This document shows, in pieces, positions 1 through 18,791 of a stretch of DNA of 60,128 bases. Every line of letters begins with the position of its first letter. Position 1 is the stretch's first letter. Position numbers and translations under genes: made by a program. The stretch spans positions 1 to 60,128 of the forward strand of contig WQUY01000004.1 in NCBI GenBank assembly GCA_009781855.1, in the 5' to 3' direction. Origin of the DNA: Oscillospiraceae bacterium (GTDB lineage: Bacteria; Bacillota; Clostridia; Oscillospirales; Oscillospiraceae). The notes beneath the pieces are model-generated. The model was not told the origin of the DNA. It worked only from the letters and a program-made list of their open reading frames with translations, and ran no database searches.

Positions 1-545
1 TCAGTCACATCGGCATCGGCCGGTATAAATACAATTTGACTCATAGCCAAATCAACAGCGTCTGCAACAGCATATTCTACAGCTCTTTCCAAAATGTCCT
101 CAACAAGTTGAATGGAAAGGATGTATTCAATGATGCCGCTATCTGCGATTGTGCGCAGTACACGATCCACTACGGCAGATACATCCACATCCGGAATGCT
201 TTGGCTGGCCTGAGCAAGCGCTGAATTGAGTACTTCATTGAGCATGGCGCTGATCAAGGGTGCGGTAAAGTCAACCAATCCTTCTGCGTCTAACAACACA
301 TTACGGATTGTAGAAAGTGCCAATTCCGCTACAAAAGCTTCAAAGGCAGCCACGGTGTTGTCTATGGCGCTACCGCTGCCTAAGAACTGATCGACATGTC
401 GCTCGACATAATTTCTAACGATGACTTCAAGATCTGCGCGGGTTGCACGGTTGGCAGATGGAGCTGCAAATGCTGGAGTTGCCATGGAAAAAAGCATGAT
501 GCAAATCACCAGGACGGCTATGAGTTTTTTTGCTATTTTACGCAA
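1..545 (-). CDS. Secreted protein of unknown function, C-terminus beyond window edge
   Basis: An open frame on the minus strand starts at a TTG (545-543), preceded at good distance by the ribosome binding site GGAGG, and runs off the left edge after about 181 codons. The start is not ATG, so a search limited to ATG would miss it. The N-terminus (RKIAKK, then a hydrophobic stretch ending in TPAFAA) is a clear Sec signal peptide with an AxA-type cleavage site near residue 26. The mature part is acidic, rich in Ala, Val and Ile, and looks mostly helical; it has no cysteine or recognised catalytic motif. I do not recognise the family. It is separated from the SDR operon by a 287-bp gap containing a long hairpin. 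Confidence 0.72.
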   Translation of the reverse strand, partial: MRKIAKKLIAVLVICIMLFSMATPAFAAPSANRATRADLEVIVRNYVERHVDQFLGSGSAIDNTVAAFEAFVAELALSTIRNVLLDAEGLVDFTAPLISAMLNEVLNSALAQASQSIPDVDVSAVVDRVLRTIADSGIIEYILSIQLVEDILERAVEYAVADAVDLAMSQIVFIPADADVT

Positions 546-740
546 GTCAAATACCTCCCAAATTTATATTTCAAGACTCTTTTAGTCCGTGTTTGGTATT
601 GTACATGCTCAACAAACCGATTGCAACCATTTTTTAGGCAAAAAGCAGGAGATTCAGCGTAGTATGTCTGCTCGTGGCGATTTTGATAAAGAATTATAAT
701 GGTGAGCGCGGAAAGCGCATGAAATGGCTGTTTTACATTC

Positions 741-773
741 GGAGGTTGTACGACAAAATGTCGTACAACCTCC
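741..773. terminator. Perfect 15-bp inverted repeat with 3-nt loop
   Basis: Positions 741-755 and 759-773 are exact reverse complements around an AAA loop. The hairpin lies downstream of the SDR operon (minus strand, ending at 833) and upstream of the secreted-protein gene starting at 545. Neither side carries a T-run, so it is not a textbook intrinsic terminator. It may stabilise a 3' end, act as a Rho-dependent or weak terminator, or be a small repeat element. The rest of the 546-832 gap shows nothing I can identify. Confidence 0.55.
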
Positions 774-832
774 CTGTGGTGAATTATGCCCAAAAGAATT
801 GATTGCTAACCGTTCACAGCGTCCCTCCAGCT

Positions 833-5116: not shown

Positions 5117-5980
5117 CTATACTTGCGGTGCAGTTTTTCGCTTGGATGTTCTTTCTTTTATCAGCTCCGCTGCAATGCTGATAGCTATTTCCTCGGGTGT
5201 CTGAGCATCTATCGGAATGCCAATCGGCGAGCAAACCCTGTCGAGGTCTGCCTGAGTATATCCTTTTTCCAGAAGCTTTTTGTAAATGCTTTCTCTCTTT
5301 TTGCTGCTGCCAATCATGCCTATATATCCGGCATTCGTTTTCAGTGCCGATTCCAGTACAAGCTGATCATGAACATGCCCTCTGGTAACGATAACGATAT
5401 AGCTATGTGCTCCCCACTCATAATCAGCAAATGACAAATCCATAGATTGAGGCACAACAATTTCATCAGCCAAGGGAAACCGTGAGGAATTTGCAAATTC
5501 CTCACGGTCATCTATTATAGCCGTTCTAAACTCCAAAGCTGAGAGTACAGGCGCAAGTGCCATCCCACAGTGACCCGCGCCAAAAATATACACAGTGCCA
5601 TCTGCATCGGCTCCGGACTTTATTGTTGCGTCAAGAGCCTCAAAGTGCTCAAGATTGGAGCGCACTTCGGCATCAACATAGTCGAGCCTAACCGTCGCAC
5701 TGCCCCCGCAAATCATCCCGGCCGCAACTGCATCACTGCCGTCAAGTACAATATTAATAGTTTGCCCATTGCGTGCCTCAAAAACCTGTGGCGCAAGTCT
5801 GATAACTCCTGCCTCAAGGGAACCTCCACCAACAGTTCCTCGGATGCTTCCATCGGCGAGCCAAAGCATACAGGCACCTGACTCACGAGGAACAGAACCG
5901 CTGCTTGCAAGTATTGTCACCTGCACAAAACTTTCTCCCGATTTTAGTAAACGTATGGCTTCGGCACATATCCTTTTCAA
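5117..5980 (-). CDS. xdhC: XdhC/CoxI-family molybdenum hydroxylase maturation factor
   Basis: The protein (287 aa) matches the XdhC/CoxI family, which bind molybdenum cofactor, promote its sulfuration and deliver it to xanthine-dehydrogenase-type enzymes. Seen: the N-terminal XdhC/CoxI domain with SGSVPRESGA and TVGGGSLE, and a C-terminal Rossmann domain with VYIFGAGHCG, VIVTRGHVHD and GYIGMIGSSKKR. The start is a TTG at 5980, seven bases after GGAGG. It lies downstream of the UroD-like gene, separated by a 127-bp gap with a dispersed repeat. Its presence supports the reading that the nearby Xdh-like subunits form a molybdenum enzyme with a sulfurated cofactor. Confidence 0.9.
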   Translation of the reverse strand: MKRICAEAIRLLKSGESFVQVTILASSGSVPRESGACMLWLADGSIRGTVGGGSLEAGVIRLAPQVFEARNGQTINIVLDGSDAVAAGMICGGSATVRLDYVDAEVRSNLEHFEALDATIKSGADADGTVYIFGAGHCGMALAPVLSALEFRTAIIDDREEFANSSRFPLADEIVVPQSMDLSFADYEWGAHSYIVIVTRGHVHDQLVLESALKTNAGYIGMIGSSKKRESIYKKLLEKGYTQADLDRVCSPIGIPIDAQTPEEIAISIAAELIKERTSKRKTAPQV

Positions 5981-7185: not shown

Positions 7186-9522
7186 CTATGCAAGCTCTAA
7201 AAGTGCCCGCTTTATCAGAGTCTTTAGAATCTGGACTTTATACTTTGTTGATTCAAACGGAGTTGCATCACGCACTGCTGCTTCCCCAACTTGTCCCGCA
7301 AGCTTTTCATCCAGCGTCTTTCCGCGCAAAACCTGCTCTGCCTCCATTGCTCTGAGTGGATGCGGTGCGACTGCACCAAGGCTTATCCTGGGCTCTGAGC
7401 CGGTTACAATGGCAAAGTTTATGATAGGAAAGTCAATCGACTTACGCAGCGCCATTTTTTTAAAAACGCTTTTTGCTCCGTCCGGGAGCGCAGGTATTAT
7501 TATTTCAGTTATTATTTCATCAAACCCAAGTGTTGTGCTTGTCATTACTCCTGCATTAAAAAAGTCCTCGGCATTTATTGTGCGCTCATGAGTCACAATT
7601 TGCGCATTTAATGCAATTAGTGCAGGTGCTATATCGGATGGACTCACAGCATAACAACCGCAGTTGAGGCAACGTTTGGCTTCCTTTTCCGCCTCCTGAA
7701 CGCCCGGAGTCTGGGAATCCTCTGTTTCAAGTGTCCGCTTATTGATATCAAGCTCCCGAAGTTTAAGGGAGGTTGTACATGTTATACCGTTTGCATCTAC
7801 TGTTACGGACGCACATCCGCCCGGATTATCTTGCTGCGTAGAAATTCCAAGGTGCAGACAAAGTCCGTCCGCAGCTTTTTTTCCATTGCTCACTGCCGAT
7901 ACAACGGTGGCAGGCCCTGTTGTTGCGTCTCCCGCTGCGAAAACACCGGGTCTTGATGTCCTTTGTGAGTCCGCATCTACATCAATCAAACCCCGTTCAT
8001 TGAGTTGAAGATGATACTTATCTCCTAAAAATGACAAGTCTACGCGCTGTCCTATGGCTAAAAGAATATTCTGTGCGCTTACTACCAACTGTTCATTTTC
8101 GTCATATTGGGGGTTAAACGTTCCATCGTCACCAACCACCGAGACACACCGCTTGAGTTCCATGCCATTTAATACGCCATTGTTTTCAATGACCTTTGAC
8201 GGCCCCCAAGATGGCATTATGACAATCCCCTCTGCTTCAGCACGCGCTATTTCCTCTGAGCTTGCCGGCATACGTTCCCGTGGCTCTACACATGCCAAAG
8301 TAACTTTTCTCGCACCCAGACGTTTTGCCGTGACCGCAACATCCATTGCCACGTTGCCTCCGCCAACTACGAGAACTTCTTCGCCCACCTTGCCGTCCAT
8401 CCACTTGCGAACCTCTACCAAGAAATCCAAACCAAAAACAGTCAGCTCTTCTCCGGAGATCCCCACAATAGGTCTCTTCCACGCTCCTGTTGCGTAGCAA
8501 ACACCGTCATATTCCTTTTCCAGCTTTTCCGGAGTAATTCCATTGGCAAAATCGTGTCCGAGAACAAACTCAATGCCCATATTCTCGAGTATGGATATAA
8601 TTTTCTCTACGATGTCTTTAGGAAGCCTATATGCCGGAATCGCATATCTGAGCATTCCTCCTGCACAATCCATGCGCTCATAAACTGTTACCTTGTTTCC
8701 GGCACGGCGCAGGAAATATGCGGCGGTCAGTCCGGCAGGCCCTGAGCCCACTACAGCAACTGATTTGTTTGTTTCCTTTGTGGGTTTTTTATAGAATTTG
8801 TCGCTGTTTTCAAGTATATAATCCCCAAGTGCACGTTCCACGCCTCCGGTGAGTACGCCCTCGTCAGTCTGGTGACGGTTGCAAGCGGATTGACAGAAAT
8901 GAGCACAGACTCGCCCGGTAATCATTGGGAAAGGGTGGGCGCTTAGAAATATCTCGGCGGCCTTATCCCAATTGTCTTTTCTGATTTCCTCAAGATATGC
9001 AGGAATGTTTGTTCCCGCAGGACATTGCGACATACATGGCGTGTCTGCACATCGGCTTCCGCCAAAGATTGAATGATATCGGTTGTCGCCTAAAATGGCA
9101 AAACATTCTTCACCGCCTTTTCTGATACAATTAAAGCGGTTATCCGCTTTCCTAAAATACCAACAGCGCGGAAGTTGTGCCAAGTTTCCCCCTATTGTCG
9201 CCATATTCCTGATATGCGGAGTTGCGACACTTCCGGCAGCCTGAGAAAGTGCGGAGTATTTTTCTTTTATTACCGGATGTTCTGATATGGCAGAGAGTTT
9301 TGTCAGCGAGCCTATTCTCAACAGGCTCTGCTCCTGCTTGACATAATCAAGGTTTTTGATTGCTTTAAGGTTTACGACTTTATCAGGATAGATTGGAAGC
9401 AGGTTATCTTTAAGCGTTCCTAAAAGGTCGGTACCTCCCGCAATTGCCTTAGCGTTACCGCTTGATAACTGAACCGATGCCTCATGCACGGTTTGAGCAT
9501 TGGCATGACTAAAAGGTCTCAT
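7186..9522 (-). CDS. Molybdenum-hydroxylase FAD subunit interrupted by a GltD-like oxidoreductase module
   Basis: The 778-aa protein combines two flavoprotein types. Residues 1-158 are a CoxM/HcrB-like FAD domain (AGGTDLLG at 28-35, TIGGNLAQ at 109-116) with cysteines C120, C132, C140 and C158, spaced like the [4Fe-4S] loop of the 4-hydroxybenzoyl-CoA reductase beta subunit. Residues ~158-620 are a full GltD/NfnB-like unit: Cys-rich N-part (C163, C167, C206, C210, C214), FAD Rossmann motif VVGSGPAG (258-264), NAD(P) motif VVGGGN (385-390) and FAAGDATTG (528-536). The Xdh-type fold resumes at SPSDIAPALIAL and ends with the CO-dehydrogenase flavoprotein C-terminal domain (~680-778). Its start overlaps the stop of the [2Fe-2S] gene (TGATGA). 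It probably exchanges electrons between NAD(P)H and the molybdenum enzyme. Electron bifurcation is conceivable but unproven. Confidence 0.87.
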   Translation of the reverse strand: MRPFSHANAQTVHEASVQLSSGNAKAIAGGTDLLGTLKDNLLPIYPDKVVNLKAIKNLDYVKQEQSLLRIGSLTKLSAISEHPVIKEKYSALSQAAGSVATPHIRNMATIGGNLAQLPRCWYFRKADNRFNCIRKGGEECFAILGDNRYHSIFGGSRCADTPCMSQCPAGTNIPAYLEEIRKDNWDKAAEIFLSAHPFPMITGRVCAHFCQSACNRHQTDEGVLTGGVERALGDYILENSDKFYKKPTKETNKSVAVVGSGPAGLTAAYFLRRAGNKVTVYERMDCAGGMLRYAIPAYRLPKDIVEKIISILENMGIEFVLGHDFANGITPEKLEKEYDGVCYATGAWKRPIVGISGEELTVFGLDFLVEVRKWMDGKVGEEVLVVGGGNVAMDVAVTAKRLGARKVTLACVEPRERMPASSEEIARAEAEGIVIMPSWGPSKVIENNGVLNGMELKRCVSVVGDDGTFNPQYDENEQLVVSAQNILLAIGQRVDLSFLGDKYHLQLNERGLIDVDADSQRTSRPGVFAAGDATTGPATVVSAVSNGKKAADGLCLHLGISTQQDNPGGCASVTVDANGITCTTSLKLRELDINKRTLETEDSQTPGVQEAEKEAKRCLNCGCYAVSPSDIAPALIALNAQIVTHERTINAEDFFNAGVMTSTTLGFDEIITEIIIPALPDGAKSVFKKMALRKSIDFPIINFAIVTGSEPRISLGAVAPHPLRAMEAEQVLRGKTLDEKLAGQVGEAAVRDATPFESTKYKVQILKTLIKRALLELA

Positions 9523-10175
9523 CAGGCGGCTCCTCCTTTAGCTTGACTGTCTTCTGCAATTTTTAACGCCGCCTCGACAATTGCTGTGGCATGACGAGGA
9601 TATGTTCCGCAAATACAAATATTCCCCGCCAGAGCTTCATTACATTCTTCTATAGTGGGATTTGGATTCCGGTCGAGAAGAGCCTTTGCGGTTACCAGAA
9701 AGCCTGGTGTGCAGTACCCGCATTGCATAGCATCCCATCTGCAATAAGCATCAACGAGAGGCTTCCACGTTGCATCAGCGGCAATACCCTCAACGGTCAG
9801 GATATCTTTACCATGACATTCTACAACTAAAGTGGTACATGAGAGCGCCGGACTGCCGTCTATGATGACCGTGCATGAGCCGCAGACACCTTTGTCACAC
9901 ATATGCTTAGCGCCGGTGAGACCCAGCTTAAACTGCAACGCGCGTTGCAAGCTCCAATGCTGAGGCACCAAAAGCTCGGTGTGCCTGCCGTTTAGAGTCA
10001 GTGCGACCATCATGGGAGGAATGTCTTCCTGATGACACTCATCATAATGTCTGCGCAAGCTATCGTAGCTTGCTGATGCTTTCTTGCAAATTGGACAGCG
10101 AAATTCCTCAACTACGTCGGGAATAGCATCTATAAGACCCCGCGCTGCCGCTCTTGTTGACTCTTGTGTATACAT
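9522..10175 (-). CDS. [2Fe-2S] subunit of Xdh/Cox-type molybdenum hydroxylase with N-terminal C2H2-like zinc finger
   Basis: Residues ~55-210 form the small iron-sulfur subunit that relays electrons from the molybdenum site: plant-ferredoxin cluster ligands C93, C98, C101, C113 and helical-domain ligands C152, C155, C187, C189. The family is usually about 160 aa; this protein (217 aa) has a ~50-residue N-terminal extension with C27-x2-C30-x12-H43-x4-H48, the exact spacing of a classical C2H2 zinc finger. The start is ATG 10175 with GAGGG nine bases upstream. The gene overlaps the FAD-subunit gene by one base, so the two are translationally coupled. The finger could bind a metal, nucleic acid or a protein partner; its role is unknown. 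Confidence 0.9.
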   Translation of the reverse strand: MYTQESTRAAARGLIDAIPDVVEEFRCPICKKASASYDSLRRHYDECHQEDIPPMMVALTLNGRHTELLVPQHWSLQRALQFKLGLTGAKHMCDKGVCGSCTVIIDGSPALSCTTLVVECHGKDILTVEGIAADATWKPLVDAYCRWDAMQCGYCTPGFLVTAKALLDRNPNPTIEECNEALAGNICICGTYPRHATAIVEAALKIAEDSQAKGGAA

Positions 10176-10206: not shown

Positions 10207-12270
10207 TTACTTTTTCAGTTTTGGGTCAAATGCATCACGAAGTCCGTCTCCAAGCAAGTTAAATGCCATAACAGTCAGCATGATAAACAAACCCGGGAAA
10301 ATGGTAAGCCACGGAGCTGTTCGCAACCACTCTCTGCCCGTTGATACCAGTGCCCCCCACTCGGGATTTGGAACCGGGATACCAAAGCCAAGAAATGACA
10401 GCCCGGCAGAGATAAGGATTGCCATACCTAAGCTTGCTGTAAATGTAATCATTATCGGAGCAAGACCATTAGGCAATACCTGTGTATAGAGTATTCTAAA
10501 GTTAGACAATCCGATTGCCTTTGCTGCCTCCACAAACTCATTGCCCTTTAAGGTGAGTATGGAAGCTCTTGATATTCGGATAAATACCGGTATTGCCGAC
10601 ACTCCAATCGCAATGATCAAGTTCGGAACAGAGCGTCCCAGCGTTGTTATTATGACCATGCCCAAGAGTATTCCGGGTATCGAAGCCAGAGCATCAGAGA
10701 ATCTCATAATGATTTCATCTGCTACACTTCCCTCAAAAAACGCAGATATTGAACCTAGGAAAACGCCTCCAAGTGCTGCAATTGCTGTAGCACCAATACC
10801 TATCGGCAAGGAAAATCTCGTAGCATATACAACCCTGTAAAACAAATTACGACCCATGTGGTCAGACCCGAATAAAAACTCAAAACTAGGCGGTGAGTTT
10901 CGGTATGCAACATTAGTGCTTGTAACCATGTCAAATGGCATACGCAAAGCGACCACGAATAGTATTAACATAACAGCCAGAATGATCATTCCGGTCAAGG
11001 CACCCGGATTTTTCAACAAATGGCGGAATACTTCGGCTCCGCGGCTGCGTTTCTTATGCTTTTTGATGACAGAGCCAACAGTGTCGGCTGTGTAGGATTG
11101 TTCGTGTACAAAGTCTGCCGCTGTCCGCGTCGCAAAGGAAACAAAGTGTTCCTCTGTTTTCTTTATCGGTTGCGCAAACGCTTCCGTAGCGGTGTGCGCT
11201 TGCTCAGCTTTAGTGGGTGTGTCAGATAGCCGCTCCGTCATAATCGGTTCCGATGCTTTTACCGCGCTTGTATTAGCTTCCGGAACGCTTTGAGCTGCCG
11301 CGATTGCTACAGCCTCCGCTTTTTTCTTTTTTCTTCCGGATTTTGTATATTGAGCTCTGATTCTAGGGTCAATAAATGCATAAGCAAGGTCAACCATAAG
11401 CAATATCAGAACATATAAAACAGTCGTTAATATAACAGCGCCCGTCGTAGATGTAACATCGCGAGCTGCAACGGATTCTACAATAAAACGACCTACGCCG
11501 GGCCAAGCAAAAACAGCTTCAATAACAGCAGTTCCCGAAACTGCGATTGCCACACTCACGCCGACAGTTGTTACAATCGGAATAAGTGCGTTGCCCAGAG
11601 CATGTTTTCTGATTACGGCATGCTCAGATACGCCTTTTGCTCGCGCTGTGCGCAGATAATCGGCCTTTAACACTTCAAGCATACTGGAGCGGGTCTGTCT
11701 GGTACATGCCGCCAAGAGTGTCATTGAGGCAACTACTGCGGGAAGTACAACACTGCGTAACCCATGATTGAATCCGCCTGCCGGAAACCATCCGAGAACA
11801 TCCGAAAATAATAGCATCATCAACACACCGAGCCAAAATCCTGGCATGGACATACCAATCATTGTAAAACCGGTAGTTATATTATCCGAAACTTTACCCG
11901 AACGTCTTGCGGCAAATATGCCCAAGGGTATGGCTATGGAAACGCCTATTATAACTGTAAAGAATGCCAAAATAAGTGTGTTCGGAAGTCTTGTTATAAA
12001 GTTTTCCCAAACACTTATTCCGCTGAAATCGCCCACGCCCAAGTCACCTTGAACTAAGCGGAACATATATCTGCCATATCTCACTAAGAGGGGGTCATCC
12101 AGACCCATCTCGGCCCTGAGTGCGGCTATTTCTTCCATGGACATGTTACCTAAATCTAAGCCTGAAATAGCATCCCCGGGCGCTAAATCCATAAGGGTGA
12201 ACACGATGAAAGAAACCAGGATAATGACAGGAATAAGCAGCAAGAGTCTTCTCAAAATATAGCGAATCAA
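10207..12270 (-). CDS. Fused DppB-DppC-type ABC transporter permease
   Basis: The 687-aa product contains two complete oligopeptide/nickel-type permeases in one chain. Residues ~1-310 are DppB-like (RYILRRLLLLIPV start, EAA loop DYLRTARAKGVSE, WPGVGRFIVE). Residues ~310-425 are a charged, low-complexity, Ala/Lys/Glu-rich linker. Residues ~425-687 are DppC-like (FGSDHMGRNLF, EAA loop FVEAAKAIGLSN, FLGFGIPVPNPEWG). DppB and DppC are normally separate genes. It lies downstream of a solute-binding protein gene and 31 bp upstream of the [2Fe-2S] gene, tying uptake to the redox enzymes. No DppD/DppF ATPase gene occurs in the window, so the ATPases must come from elsewhere. Confidence 0.9.
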   Translation of the reverse strand: MIRYILRRLLLLIPVIILVSFIVFTLMDLAPGDAISGLDLGNMSMEEIAALRAEMGLDDPLLVRYGRYMFRLVQGDLGVGDFSGISVWENFITRLPNTLILAFFTVIIGVSIAIPLGIFAARRSGKVSDNITTGFTMIGMSMPGFWLGVLMMLLFSDVLGWFPAGGFNHGLRSVVLPAVVASMTLLAACTRQTRSSMLEVLKADYLRTARAKGVSEHAVIRKHALGNALIPIVTTVGVSVAIAVSGTAVIEAVFAWPGVGRFIVESVAARDVTSTTGAVILTTVLYVLILLMVDLAYAFIDPRIRAQYTKSGRKKKKAEAVAIAAAQSVPEANTSAVKASEPIMTERLSDTPTKAEQAHTATEAFAQPIKKTEEHFVSFATRTAADFVHEQSYTADTVGSVIKKHKKRSRGAEVFRHLLKNPGALTGMIILAVMLILFVVALRMPFDMVTSTNVAYRNSPPSFEFLFGSDHMGRNLFYRVVYATRFSLPIGIGATAIAALGGVFLGSISAFFEGSVADEIIMRFSDALASIPGILLGMVIITTLGRSVPNLIIAIGVSAIPVFIRISRASILTLKGNEFVEAAKAIGLSNFRILYTQVLPNGLAPIMITFTASLGMAILISAGLSFLGFGIPVPNPEWGALVSTGREWLRTAPWLTIFPGLFIMLTVMAFNLLGDGLRDAFDPKLKK

Positions 12271-14331: not shown

Positions 14332-16344
14332 ATGGGATCAAAATTTACTCATGTATTCGAGCCAATAACAATAAGAGGTGTTGATTTTAAGAATCGAATC
14401 TGCTTGGCTCCCCCTTCACCTAATCTTGCCAGCGAAGAGGGTTATGTGACCAAGGATTTTGTAAACTTCTTTCGTATGTTCGCAAGAGGAGGAGCCTGTA
14501 CACTTTTCGTTGGCAACTGCTCTATAGATATCACCGAGTGCAAAGACGAAGCATATCAGCTTAACCTGATCAGCGATAATGGAATTTTGCCCCTGACTTG
14601 GTATGCCGATATGGCAAAGGAATACAGTTGTCATGCATCATTGGAAATTAATCACAATGGTGAAAACAGTGCGCCGGAAGATGTTGGGGCAGAAAACCGC
14701 TACTCATCATCTTCGTTCATTTCAGCAACCGAAGCCAATCGTGCCAAGCGGCTTGGCCGCGACCCCATCCCCTGTAAAGAGATGACGCATGAAAAAATTA
14801 AAGAGACCGTGGAAAAATACGCGATGGCAGCCTATCGTATGAAACGCGCAGGTATGGATATTGTGATGGTTCACGGCGGTCATGGCAATCTTATATCTCA
14901 GTTTATGAGCCCGATGTACAACAAGCGCACCGATGAGTATGGCGGAAGTACGGAAAACCGTGCGCGTTTTGCTATTGAGGTTTGCAAGAGCATCCGTGAA
15001 AAATGTGGCGAAAACTTTGTTATTGAGATGCGAATCTCAGGTGATGAAATAGCTCCTGAGGGTATGCGCGTCGAAGAAACCATTGAAATGCTGGGTTATC
15101 TAAAGCCATATATAGACATTGCTCATGTATCCGCAGGCATTCACAGTGATTTTGATATGAAGTATTACCGCAATTGGTGTCAGAACTTCATGATGCCTCG
15201 TGGGTTTAATGTTCATTATGCTGAGAAAATCAAAAAAGCTCATCCCGATCTTCTGGTTAACACAGTCGGCTCTATTACAAGCTTAGAGCTTGCGGAAGAA
15301 ATTATTTCCAGCGGTAAAGCCGACTTTGTATCTATGATGAGACCTCTGCTCGCAGATCCTGACATGCCCAGAAAGTATGCCAATAACAAGCCGGAGGACA
15401 GACGCCCATGTTTACGCTGTGATGCTTGCACAGGCCACCTGTTTATCCCTAAGCCGCAGTATTGTGCGGTAAATCCTATGGCATTTTTCAGCAGAGATTT
15501 AACAGATGGTATCGTTCCAAAAGCTCCTGTGAAAAAGAAAGTTGCCGTCGTGGGCGGTGGCCCTGCCGGCATTACAGCACTTACTACGTTGGTAGACCGT
15601 GGCCATGATGTAACATTGTATGAGCAATCCGGTGCGCTTGGCGGCAATGTCATAGGTGCCGCAGTTCCTCCATTTAAGCTTGACTGTCAGGATTACCTGA
15701 AATGGTTGGTTGCGCAACCGGGGAAAACAAATGCAAAGGTTTTGCTCAATACAGAGGCGACAAAGGAACTTTTGGATAAAGAAAACTATGATGCACTCAT
15801 TATCGCAGTCGGTGCAGATCCGGTATTCCCGGATGTTCTCGGCGTTAACAAGCCTCATGTCAGTTGGGCTCCCGATGCCGAATGCGGCAAAGCCCCTGTC
15901 GGCAACGACATTGTTGTTGTCGGTGCCGGTTCAGTGGGTCTTGAAGCAGCGATTGAGTTTAAGCGTGAGGGCAAAAATGTCACTGTAATTGAGCTTTTGG
16001 AAGAAGGCCCTGCAATGATGGCGCTTTTCAAAAGCGCGAAAATGGTCGCGCGTGAATTTCCGACTATTCTCGCCAATGAAAAAGTCCCGGTTAAGTATGG
16101 TTATGAACTTACTGAGATAAAAGATGATAAGGTTGTTTGCCGAATGCTTGCAACCGGGGAGACGGTTGAGATTCCCTGCGACACAGTCCTTATAGCTATA
16201 GGCATGAAATCCAGAATTAAAGCCGCTCATGCACTGCGCCGTTGCGCACCTGAGACCGAGGTTCATATTGTCGGTGACGCTGTTGAAGTCGGCAACATTT
16301 ACGATGCTGTACACACAGGATTCCAAGCGGCACTGCATTTGTAA
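14332..16344 (+). CDS. NADH:flavin oxidoreductase, Old Yellow Enzyme/2,4-dienoyl-CoA reductase/BaiCD type
   Basis: The 670-aa enzyme has the three-part layout of 2,4-dienoyl-CoA reductase, trimethylamine dehydrogenase and the bile-acid enzymes BaiCD/BaiH. Residues 1-~350 are an FMN-binding TIM barrel (FKNRICLAP, HGGHGNLISQFMSP, NKRTDEYGGS). A [4Fe-4S] site follows at C360, C363, C366 and C378. Residues ~402-670 form FAD- and NAD(P)-binding domains (VVGGGPAGITA from 406, VVVGAGSVGLEA). Such enzymes reduce or oxidise C=C bonds conjugated to a carbonyl or thioester. The ribosome site GGGAAAGG precedes ATG 14332. It has its own promoter and is convergent with the molybdenum subunit gene. Steroid-like or cyclic enone/enoate substrates are plausible; the exact one cannot be read from sequence. 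Confidence 0.92.
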   Translation: MGSKFTHVFEPITIRGVDFKNRICLAPPSPNLASEEGYVTKDFVNFFRMFARGGACTLFVGNCSIDITECKDEAYQLNLISDNGILPLTWYADMAKEYSCHASLEINHNGENSAPEDVGAENRYSSSSFISATEANRAKRLGRDPIPCKEMTHEKIKETVEKYAMAAYRMKRAGMDIVMVHGGHGNLISQFMSPMYNKRTDEYGGSTENRARFAIEVCKSIREKCGENFVIEMRISGDEIAPEGMRVEETIEMLGYLKPYIDIAHVSAGIHSDFDMKYYRNWCQNFMMPRGFNVHYAEKIKKAHPDLLVNTVGSITSLELAEEIISSGKADFVSMMRPLLADPDMPRKYANNKPEDRRPCLRCDACTGHLFIPKPQYCAVNPMAFFSRDLTDGIVPKAPVKKKVAVVGGGPAGITALTTLVDRGHDVTLYEQSGALGGNVIGAAVPPFKLDCQDYLKWLVAQPGKTNAKVLLNTEATKELLDKENYDALIIAVGADPVFPDVLGVNKPHVSWAPDAECGKAPVGNDIVVVGAGSVGLEAAIEFKREGKNVTVIELLEEGPAMMALFKSAKMVAREFPTILANEKVPVKYGYELTEIKDDKVVCRMLATGETVEIPCDTVLIAIGMKSRIKAAHALRRCAPETEVHIVGDAVEVGNIYDAVHTGFQAALHL

Positions 16345-16424: not shown

Positions 16425-18791
16425 CTATGCTTTGCCTAACGCCTTGAGTATTTTGTCGGGTGTCGCCGGAGGGTCTACCCAAACTCCTATAGCATTGTGA
16501 ATCGCAATAACTACCATGTGAGTATTTGCCAGTGAATGACTTATACCTGACGCACCATAAGCGGCGTTACCCGCACGCGTCTCAAGAAAATGCCTATCCA
16601 CACGCGGAACATCAAGGGTTGTCGGTTTTTTGTAGTCAATCATGTTGTTATTGAGCCGTACCCCGGTGCGCTCATCATATACAATATCTTCAAGAAGTTG
16701 GCAACCTTGGCTAAAGAACATAACCTGGTCTATCTGGCTTTCAAGCGAAGTAGGCCGTAAAACCTTGCCCGGGTCGGCGACAACACCAAAGCGAAGCACT
16801 TCGACCTCACCTGTCTCAGCGTCCACAGCAACTTCACAATAAGCAGTGTTCATTGTATCAAGCAGCTTACCCAACCCTACACTCCAAAGAGCCGCAGGAG
16901 GCCTGCCGGCATATGTGGCGACAAGATGTTGCAACGCCGCAACCTGAAGCGGTCTCTTTATGGAGGGGTCTTTTTTAACAATGACATGCCCGTTAACAAT
17001 ATCCAGCTCCTCGGCTTTATAACCCTCAAGCGGATTTGGTCCCAAAGGTGCTTTCGGCCCTTTCATAGCCGGTGGCGGTGGGTATTGTGCTTCATAAGCG
17101 GCGGCTTCCAAAATCTGTTGTTTAAGCCTTGCTGCACATTCTTTCATGCACCAAGCCGATGCGGTCGTGCCGTCAGAACCTCCACCCACAGGCGTAAATG
17201 TTTCACGATAGTCATATTCTACGATAACATCATCATAATCAATACCCAACTCCTCGGCAACAACCATGGCGTTACACTCTACGGCAAATATCCCTGTTAC
17301 AGGCCCTTGGGTTGGCATGACAATCTTGCCAAACCTATATTCAAGCTTGCAGTAGTAACTTGTAAACGCATGTCGCGGGCACATCTGATATCTAAATGAT
17401 GCGCCATGATACCTGCCGTCCGGCAGTTTTTTTGTTCCCGACTTATGCCAATTCCAGTTCATAAGCTTCTTGCCCTCATCCAGGCAAGCCTCGAAACTCG
17501 GAACAGGCCTTTCATCTTCCTGAGAATCAGGGCCATGAAGATTTAACTTTGCAATATCAATCGGGTCTTTGCCCAGCTTTTCGGCAATCAGATATATCGC
17601 CATTGTGCCGGAGTCCCAATTAAATGGGCAGTGCTGTCCGCTTAAATGCATTTTGCCGCGGTTTGAATCAACTATTTCCATATATTGCCTGATATTCAAA
17701 CATTTCATGGTATAGTACGGGCCGTACCCTTGGTCATTCGCGGTACCGAAGCTGGCATTACCGTCAGTTCCTCCATCCGCTATCGAGTAATCGTCGATTG
17801 CTGTGATAAGACCGTCGTTGGTAAAGCCCACTTTCATGTGCATATAGCGCTGATTCATAAGGAAGTCAAATGTTTCTTCACGAGTGTTTGCGCATCGGAC
17901 AGGTCTGCCGGTGCGGCGCGCAAGGAGCGGAGTTATTTCTTGCGCACGGCGCATACCCCAGTCGCAATATTTACCACCCTGGAAAATACCCTCCTGTACG
18001 GTTTTTTCCACCGGAACCTCGTATAATGCGCTTATGAGTTCTCTCCTTTGAACTGCGCCCTCAATGTGCAAACTGTCACCCTCGGTTGCATAAGGATCCT
18101 TAAACCACCAAGCCACCGAAGCCGGTGGATTCGGAATATGGGAGGCAAAAGAGGGAAGCGTCAGGGAGTATTCGATTATGTTTTCAGCTTCTTCCAGCGC
18201 CTTATCCACATCTCCTTGAACCGTAATGGCTTTTGAAACATTACCAACTTTTGGCTCATCTACAAGTCTTGCAAATGGGTCTTTTGCATGATAGATTTCG
18301 TCTTTCGGACGCGCAAGAGGACTCTCTGCTTTTAATCCCTCAAGTATGTTTACCACAGGAGGCATTATCTCCCACTCAACATCAAGCAAAGATAGTGCCT
18401 GCGCACAAATATCCTCATCCTCCGCTACGACAATTACGCCTACCTCTACGCCTTCTTGGTCGGCATAATTATCAAGCCATCGACGCCGCGGCCCACCCGG
18501 AGATGCATAAAAGCTTACTTTGAAGAAGTCTTTGAGGTCATCATCCTCCCATGTAACGATGTCCGCAACGCCCGGCAAATTCTTTGCTTTTGTGGTATCC
18601 ACTTTTATAACTCTTGCATTTGCATATGGGCTTCTCAAAAACTTAGCATGAAGCATGTTGGGAACAACATAGTCTATACCAAATTTCGCGATGCCGGTTG
18701 CTAATGCATAGGACACTTTTCCGGGCAAATTAGGCTTGCCTACTACTCTAAAATTCTCTCTTTGTCCATTTACGCCTATAAGATCAGCCAT
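16425..18791 (-). CDS. Divergent xanthine dehydrogenase/CoxL-type molybdopterin subunit
   Basis: The 788-aa protein matches the large molybdopterin subunit of Xdh/Cox/Hcr enzymes in length and order: an N-terminal a/b hammerhead domain (KVSYALATG, FLRSPYANARV), then the cofactor domain with the FQGGK motif, RTGRPVRCANTREE, VGGGSDGTT and a C-terminal repeat. Two normally conserved spots differ. The segment usually reading GxGE(P/S), which supplies the base glutamate, reads YGASG at 745-749, and the usual RGFG/RGPG region reads LSGQH. Substrate specificity or chemistry may therefore be unusual. The gene stands apart from its small subunits, 6.2 kb away, and is divergent from the carboxymuconolactone-decarboxylase-like gene. 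It could use the nearby [2Fe-2S] and FAD subunits. Confidence 0.88.
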   Translation of the reverse strand: MADLIGVNGQRENFRVVGKPNLPGKVSYALATGIAKFGIDYVVPNMLHAKFLRSPYANARVIKVDTTKAKNLPGVADIVTWEDDDLKDFFKVSFYASPGGPRRRWLDNYADQEGVEVGVIVVAEDEDICAQALSLLDVEWEIMPPVVNILEGLKAESPLARPKDEIYHAKDPFARLVDEPKVGNVSKAITVQGDVDKALEEAENIIEYSLTLPSFASHIPNPPASVAWWFKDPYATEGDSLHIEGAVQRRELISALYEVPVEKTVQEGIFQGGKYCDWGMRRAQEITPLLARRTGRPVRCANTREETFDFLMNQRYMHMKVGFTNDGLITAIDDYSIADGGTDGNASFGTANDQGYGPYYTMKCLNIRQYMEIVDSNRGKMHLSGQHCPFNWDSGTMAIYLIAEKLGKDPIDIAKLNLHGPDSQEDERPVPSFEACLDEGKKLMNWNWHKSGTKKLPDGRYHGASFRYQMCPRHAFTSYYCKLEYRFGKIVMPTQGPVTGIFAVECNAMVVAEELGIDYDDVIVEYDYRETFTPVGGGSDGTTASAWCMKECAARLKQQILEAAAYEAQYPPPPAMKGPKAPLGPNPLEGYKAEELDIVNGHVIVKKDPSIKRPLQVAALQHLVATYAGRPPAALWSVGLGKLLDTMNTAYCEVAVDAETGEVEVLRFGVVADPGKVLRPTSLESQIDQVMFFSQGCQLLEDIVYDERTGVRLNNNMIDYKKPTTLDVPRVDRHFLETRAGNAAYGASGISHSLANTHMVVIAIHNAIGVWVDPPATPDKILKALGKA

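Follow-up and report, generated by a model that had tools for sequence, protein, structure and literature searches.

RESULTS

An FAD subunit split by a GltD/NfnB-type module

We analyzed a 60,128-nucleotide stretch of DNA from an Oscillospiraceae bacterium (assembly GCA_009781855.1, contig WQUY01000004.1, positions 1 to 60,128 of the forward strand), which is referred to below as the window. The open reading frame (ORF) at positions 7186 to 9522 is one continuous CoxM/HcrB-type FAD subunit, a component of molybdenum hydroxylases, that is interrupted by a GltD/NfnB-type module. Together with two partner subunits, it probably forms a three-subunit enzyme of the xanthine oxidase family with a linear, and more likely NAD(H)-linked, electron conduit to the molybdenum site. 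The features of the fused chain are as follows (HBCR, 4-hydroxybenzoyl-CoA reductase).

7186..9522, minus strand: fused FAD subunit, CoxM/HcrB type with an inserted GltD/NfnB-type module (778 amino acids; Pfam, alignment, and structure model)
9175..9522, minus strand: residues 1-116, N-terminal FAD-binding part of the CoxM/HcrB fold (FAD_binding_5)
9103..9165, minus strand: residues 120-140, with C120, C132, and C140, probably the first three HBCR-type [4Fe-4S] ligands (Cys in 31/31 fusion sequences)
7657..9054, minus strand: residues 157-622, inserted GltD/NfnB-type module, predicted to hold two [4Fe-4S] clusters, FAD, and a nicotinamide nucleotide site (Pfam, sequence and fold matches)
8836..9036, minus strand: residues 163-229, with C163, C167, C206, C210, C214, and E229, putative ligands of the module clusters (conservation counts)
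8284..8364, minus strand: residues 387-413, nucleotide-binding GGGN and an invariant E413 that replaces the second Arg of YRR (alignment)
7660..7671, minus strand: residues 618-621, with C618 and C621 (RCLNC), putatively the remaining module ligands (conservation counts)
7654..7656, minus strand: C623, the first residue past the insert, probable fourth HBCR-type ligand (conservation, Cys at the empty site)
7189..7656, minus strand: residues 623-778, remainder of the CoxM/HcrB fold (CO_deh_flav_C at 687-777, fold alignment)

The minus-strand ORF starts with ATG and encodes 778 amino acids with no internal stops. Pfam matched FAD_binding_5 to the window protein as two stretches, the better scoring of which covered residues 6 to 116, and placed Fer4_20 (157 to 239), Pyr_redox_2 (254 to 547), and CO_deh_flav_C (687 to 777) on the same chain, with all domains above the cut-off. 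The pair of FAD_binding_5 and CO_deh_flav_C is that of a CoxM-fold FAD subunit of the xanthine oxidase family, and Fer4_20 followed by Pyr_redox_2, with two Rossmann folds, is that of a GltD/NfnB-type module. When the window's own genome (92% complete) was searched with FAD_binding_5, the fusion ORF was the sole match at an E value of 0.001 and covered profile positions 7 to 113 and then 112 to 169; because the profile resumes at position 112 after stopping at 113, the insert, about 466 residues long and ending at about residue 622, splits this domain at one point. G29, G30, T31, D32, and G112 were invariant in all 20 aligned fusions. Pfam was run on two fusions, the window protein and L147, and the layout of the remaining fusions is alignment based.

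An AlphaFold model built from an alignment of 20 sequences kept both folds. Over model range 1..778, VIA-align paired 308 of the 330 residues of the aldehyde oxidase medium subunit 5y6q_B and 296 of the 323 residues of HBCR subunit 1rm6_B; 9bov_A matched model range 155..719, and the insert matched both Nfn-ABC and StnC. The domain profiles, the alignment, the model, and the fold matches agree on what a reading of this DNA from its sequence only had proposed, which was a complete GltD/NfnB-type module inside an HcrB-like FAD subunit, with a single chain carrying the motifs of two flavin sites and one nicotinamide nucleotide site. The CoxM-like fold on which that reading depended is continuous around the insert in the predicted structure.

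Distribution of the fusion and its empty site

The same domain order, for which the sequence-only reading had recommended a search, was found in 29 other full-length sequences (28 distinct). A scan of a species-genome collection confirmed 230 stretches, of which the best 80 were kept: 19 full-length fusions, 2 truncated fusions (L023 and L025), and 59 non-fused relatives, the last being biased toward close ones since they were recovered with the window protein as the query. The 19 full-length fusions (L007 to L022, L024, L026, and L027, from 19 other contigs) were free of stops, aligned end to end, and were 49 to 66% identical to the window protein. Whole-genome searches provided 10 further fusion sequences, of which L144 is identical to L011 but is counted separately in the partner, ligand, and insert length counts. 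Insert length ranged from 464 to 579 amino acids across 30 sequences. The longest insert, at 579 versus approximately 466 residues, was in L147 (2188-4905, minus strand), where the Pfam order was unchanged. Carriers of the fusion include the isolate Sporobacter termitidis DSM 10068 and the single-contig genome G482, and many of the named matches are Oscillospiraceae or Clostridiales metagenome-assembled genomes; several of those bin series we take to be from termite guts, a source that the displayed records do not state. G592 and G968 carry two fusion copies each, and L026 (30-13966) contains two tandem sets of small subunit, molybdenum subunit, and fusion genes, the second fusion ending at the contig edge. 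The Desulfobacterales loci L028 to L042 had been considered as carriers of the FAD flank, and this was rejected when hidden Markov models of both flanks matched none of the 59 non-fused relatives.

The fusion is rare and patchy in Bacillota. Counting matches that spanned the whole query, and with the window's genome included each time, it was present in 3 of 394 genomes sampled from the order, 4 of 391 from the class, and 4 of 398 from the phylum. The genome samples used for these counts and for the empty-site and His-type searches described below overlap, and the fusion and His-type searches considered at most two candidates per genome at strict E values, so that absence there is not proof.

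Five relatives without the insert (L178 to L182), found by using the window protein minus its insert as the query, were 45 to 50% identical to it over their full length. In L179 and L180, the sequence ...NRYHAIMGGKK is joined directly to CFAVCPSD..., while at the same junction the window protein reads ...NRYHSIFGGS, then the 466 residues ending in RCLNCG, and then CYAVSPSD.... No standalone GltD-like gene was found beside uninserted FAD subunits in the 12 stretches examined, two of which are only about 5 kb long. A tree made from the flanks only set the 30 inserted sequences apart by a modestly supported branch (84/52; recovered in 86% of bootstrap trees), and the window's clade of 23 sequences was strongly supported (100/100). 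L026b was left out of this tree, and the truncated L023 and L025 were left out of alignment A1.

Candidate iron-sulfur ligands

Ligand positions were compared across 31 fusion sequences, one of which is truncated and one identical to another. Positions 120, 132, 140, 163, 167, 206, 210, and 214 were Cys in all 31, and C618, C621, and C623 were Cys in all 30 with a letter at those positions. Among the non-fused GltD-like relatives, C163, C167, C206, C210, and C214 were present in 59 of 59, and C618 and C621 in 58 of the 58 with a letter there. The earlier reading had assigned C120, C132, C140, and C158 to the HBCR-type cluster. The first three of these stand, and C158, which is Cys in just 5 of the 31 fusions, was rejected. 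Its place is better filled by C623, since the fourth Cys of the four-Cys loop in 1rm6_B, 5y6q_B, and 5g5g_B falls there and the empty-site relatives also have Cys there. The fourth HBCR-type ligand is thus more likely C623 than C158, and C120, C132, C140, and C623 would share a cluster of the kind held by the four-Cys loop of the HBCR FAD subunit. The seven other Cys and E229 probably serve the two clusters of the module, for which eight ligands are expected, and C623 could belong to these as well. This would give twelve ligands for three [4Fe-4S] clusters.

The inserted module and its nucleotide site

By sequence, the insert was closest to Nfn-ABC subunit A (9bov_A; residues 161-624, E value of 2e-81), followed by 9n5u_A and StnC (8oh5_C). 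Residue 229 was Glu in 31 of 31 fusions and Lys or His in all 59 non-fused relatives. In StnC and 9bov it is Lys, and NfnB has Glu at the matching position according to passages of PMC10482914. The YRR of the StnC and 9bov nucleotide site is changed at its two Arg positions to [LV]E in 31 of 31 fusions and to LE in 59 of 59 relatives. An acidic residue at this position usually favors NAD(H). NAD(H) is therefore the more likely nucleotide for the module, as judged from these residues, with NADP(H) the less likely one.

StnC of Sporomusa ovata and Nfn-ABC subunit A of Caldicellulosiruptor likewise place a GltD/NfnB-type module within another redox scaffold; they are among the top matches to the insert by both sequence and fold, and share its RCLxCGC tail. 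They differ from the window protein in having Lys in place of E229 and YRR in place of [LV]E, and the scaffold of StnC, as described in excerpts of PMC10482914, is NuoG/FdhF-like rather than CoxM-like.

Partner subunits and an altered molybdenum site

The window also encodes the partners expected of a xanthine oxidase family enzyme, with Fer2, Fer2_2, and all three large-subunit domains (Ald_Xan_dh_C, MoCoBD) above the cut-off.

9522..10175, minus strand: [2Fe-2S] small subunit (Fer2, Fer2_2) with an N-terminal C2H2-finger-like extension (Pfam)
16425..18791, minus strand: molybdopterin large subunit with a His-type active site, C276, H387, and H752 (Pfam, alignment)
5117..5980, minus strand: XdhC-family maturation factor (NF045664, 353.7 bits versus a cut-off of 350)

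The small subunit and fusion genes overlap by one base, and the molybdenum subunit gene lies approximately 6 kb from the fusion, past a transporter gene and a flavoenzyme gene. All three subunit genes were close together in 23 of the 32 loci examined. A partner was missing or incomplete within the stretch in the nine others, of which several were cut by contig ends and one was the window's own 5.3-kb slice. No molybdenum subunit was found in the stretches examined for L008, L010, L020, L023, L025, L142, and L143; in L008, the small subunit and fusion genes are adjacent without a molybdenum subunit in 22 kb. The window's genome contains moaA.

The molybdenum subunits of the window's clade were 62 to 78% identical to that of the window, and their active-site motifs are altered. 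The catalytic Glu is replaced by His (H752) in 18 of 18, so that the window lacks this defining residue of the xanthine oxidase family, and SGQH (H387) stands for RGxG and GG[KR]YC (C276) for GGxFG in the same 18; we take motifs of the RGxG and GGxFG type to line the molybdenum site. All 13 comparison sequences retain Glu: five Glu-type fusion partners, seven uninserted relatives, and E. coli XdhD. L144 (identical to L011), L012 (partial), and L141 (split molybdenum gene) were excluded from this comparison; L012 and L144 also have His, and every clade member with a molybdenum subunit in its locus is therefore His type. Among the 398 genomes sampled from the phylum, G000, G860, G968, and G1041 yielded a His-type subunit, and these are the four in which the fusion was found. 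In the other fusion branch, L021, L026, L139, L140, and L141 have Glu-type partners, and the insertion and the His-type site consequently look like separate events. A search of open-licence PMC papers turned up no account of the fusion or of the His-type subunit.

A second His-type molybdenum subunit is encoded at 8321-10717 of L199 and at 8608-10965 of L200 (G860 and G1041), with an XdhC-like gene in the stretch. No small or FAD subunit gene resembling those of the window was found in these two stretches, which suggests that the lone second copies share electron-transfer subunits. In L141 (6517-8970), the molybdenum subunit is encoded by two adjacent ORFs beside the fused FAD subunit, an arrangement reminiscent of nicotinate dehydrogenase.

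Other features of the locus

Residues 27-48 of the small subunit (window positions 10032-10097, minus strand) resemble a C2H2 zinc finger, CPIC...H....CH. This extension was present in 17 of 19 small subunits of the window's clade, L016 and L017 being the exceptions, and in 0 of 10 others. Between the subunit genes, positions 10207-12270 (minus strand) encode a 687-amino-acid chain with two BPD_transp_1 stretches plus BPD_transp_1_N and OppC_N, which resembles a fused OppB and OppC. Also inside the cluster but on the other strand, positions 14332-16344 (plus) encode a flavoenzyme that resembles BaiCD and bilirubin reductase and scores under the curated cut-off of each family. The neighboring genes examined vary between loci or look unrelated, and no pathway emerges from them.

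DISCUSSION

A proposed electron conduit to the molybdenum site

The arrangement described above suggests that the FAD subunit of an enzyme of the three-subunit molybdenum hydroxylase family took in a complete GltD/NfnB-type module between the third and fourth Cys of an HBCR-type [4Fe-4S] loop. HBCR probably takes outside electrons through this cluster loop. With the insertion, the site where an external electron carrier would be likely to dock may have become a covalent NAD(P)H dehydrogenase. The chain would run from the molybdenum site through the two [2Fe-2S] clusters of the small subunit to FAD-1 in the CoxM part and on to the [4Fe-4S] cluster of C120/C132/C140/C623; from there, it would pass through the two [4Fe-4S] clusters of the module (C163, C167, C206, C210, C214, C618, C621, and E229) to FAD-2 and NAD(P)(H). 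Electron flow is most likely linear and could go in either direction.

The known systems resemble parts of this arrangement. HcrB (1rm6_B), PaoB (5g5g_B), and the aldehyde oxidase medium subunit (5y6q_B) share the FAD subunit fold and four Cys in the same loop but lack the inserted module, and the large subunits of HBCR and quinoline oxidoreductase have Glu where that of the window has His. The HBCR equivalog models of NCBIfam scored below their cut-offs (TIGR03193, 138.7 versus 257.8 bits; TIGR03194, 175.1 versus 994.55; TIGR03195, 125.3 versus 404.55). In the reductive urate pathway of E. coli, a GltD-like module (YgfK), an FAD subunit (YgfM), and a molybdenum subunit (XdhD) are encoded in one cluster, and passages of PMC12507026 report that XdhD copurified with putative YgfM reduces urate with NADH. 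Unlike the fusion, the three are encoded separately, YgfM lacks Cys throughout the region that corresponds to the four-Cys loop, XdhD keeps Glu, and YgfK is modeled in the same passages with an FMN site for substrate reduction. According to excerpts of PMC9973337, AadN of Rhodopseudomonas palustris is a fused Nfn, encoded next to hba and tied genetically to anaerobic aromatic degradation; it is a separate enzyme, not part of a molybdenum enzyme, and is proposed to supply electrons through ferredoxin. Since XdhD provides a precedent for NADH-driven reduction in the family, and AadN one for an Nfn-type enzyme in anaerobic aromatic degradation, we favor the linear NAD(H)-linked conduit.

Several observations weigh against this account. 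Although C623 is rare in the non-fused relatives (Cys in 1 of the 58 with a letter there, L063, in a count in which the reference segments ended before that residue), the idea that it is specific to the fusion was weakened by 9bov_A, 9n5u_A, and 8oh5_C, which also read RCxxCGC. C623 may thus derive from or serve the module, and this lowers our confidence in the conduit. C459 (20 of 20) and C411 (19 of 20) are conserved and fall outside the ligand scheme. The model is weak at the junction, with a predicted local distance difference test (pLDDT) score of <50 at residues 121-145 and 157-161, and carries neither cofactors nor distances. E. coli YgfK keeps YRR despite its reported use of NADH (passages of PMC12507026), which means that the YRR motif alone does not fix the nucleotide. 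Finally, the change from Glu to His in the partner makes ordinary molybdenum hydroxylase chemistry uncertain, and ordinary hydroxylation is not to be assumed for the window's clade.

Direction of flow and alternative functions

The conduit could be used oxidatively, with the molybdenum site hydroxylating or oxidizing a substrate and the module handing the electrons to NAD+ in place of the xanthine dehydrogenase-type NAD site on the FAD domain. Oxidation is the ordinary direction for the family, and the Glu-type partners (the five comparison sequences and the split gene of L141) keep the catalytic residue while sharing the fusion. On the other hand, the window's clade has His in its place in 18 of 18 subunits, and HBCR, a solved relative with the same extra cluster, reportedly works by inverted electron flow, as the title of its 2004 structure paper states. 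We regard oxidative use as a serious possibility, at somewhat less than even chances; because it is one direction of the same conduit, the likelihoods given to the different readings need not sum to one. Still more tentatively, the window's clade might represent a new class of enzyme with the molybdenum hydroxylase fold, in which the rebuilt site is driven by NADH through the inserted NfnB-type module and carries out a reductive reaction, such as aromatic dehydroxylation or ring reduction in anaerobes, with or without bifurcation.

The sequence-only reading had also raised flavin-based bifurcation or reversed electron flow, for which we found little support. A bifurcating enzyme would split the electron pair of NAD(P)H at FAD-2, sending one electron at low potential to the molybdenum site and the other to a second acceptor, and would thereby drive a hard reduction. 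The module is of the NfnB kind, E229 is the Glu reported for NfnB in all 31 fusions, and R299 lines up with the Arg equivalent to the N5-arginine of NfnB (passages of PMC10482914); in R. palustris, the Nfn homologue AadN adjoins the hba genes, and growth on benzoate and 4-hydroxybenzoate is impaired when AadN is deleted (excerpts of PMC9973337). However, StnC, which is closely related to the module, keeps this Arg, and its homologous FAD is termed nonbifurcating in the passages of PMC10482914, which describe a linear path from it; moreover, Arg at position 299 occurs in 42 of the 59 non-fused relatives and so is not diagnostic. No NfnA-like protein, ferredoxin subunit, or third redox branch was seen among the annotated window proteins; the other loci were searched for the three subunits only, with ten ORFs annotated. 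Bifurcation is therefore an unlikely function of this enzyme.

Slightly less probable again is that the molybdenum subunit in the window's clade has ceased to catalyze a reaction at molybdenum and that the fusion persists as a remnant or a diaphorase. The replacements of Glu by His, RGxG by SGQH, and GGxFG by GG[KR]YC would fit such a loss, but the invariance of the new residues points to use rather than decay; the subunit is kept at the identity given above, the window encodes an XdhC factor, and the same 4 of the 398 genomes yielded both the fusion and the His-type subunit. The idea that two neighboring genes were joined by an error of sequencing or assembly, such as a frameshift, is ruled out for practical purposes by the continuous ORF in 30 full-length sequences (29 distinct) from many assemblies, including S. 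termitidis DSM 10068 and G482, and by the flanks of the insert, which are two halves of one domain and thus cannot be side-by-side genes.

Because a named strain, S. termitidis DSM 10068, has this system, the enzyme is open to direct purification and testing. The fusion indicates that evolution can wire a nicotinamide nucleotide oxidoreductase into a molybdenum enzyme by insertion at a cluster loop, and it travels with a set of molybdenum subunits that lack the catalytic Glu. These enzymes may do unusual NADH-linked chemistry.

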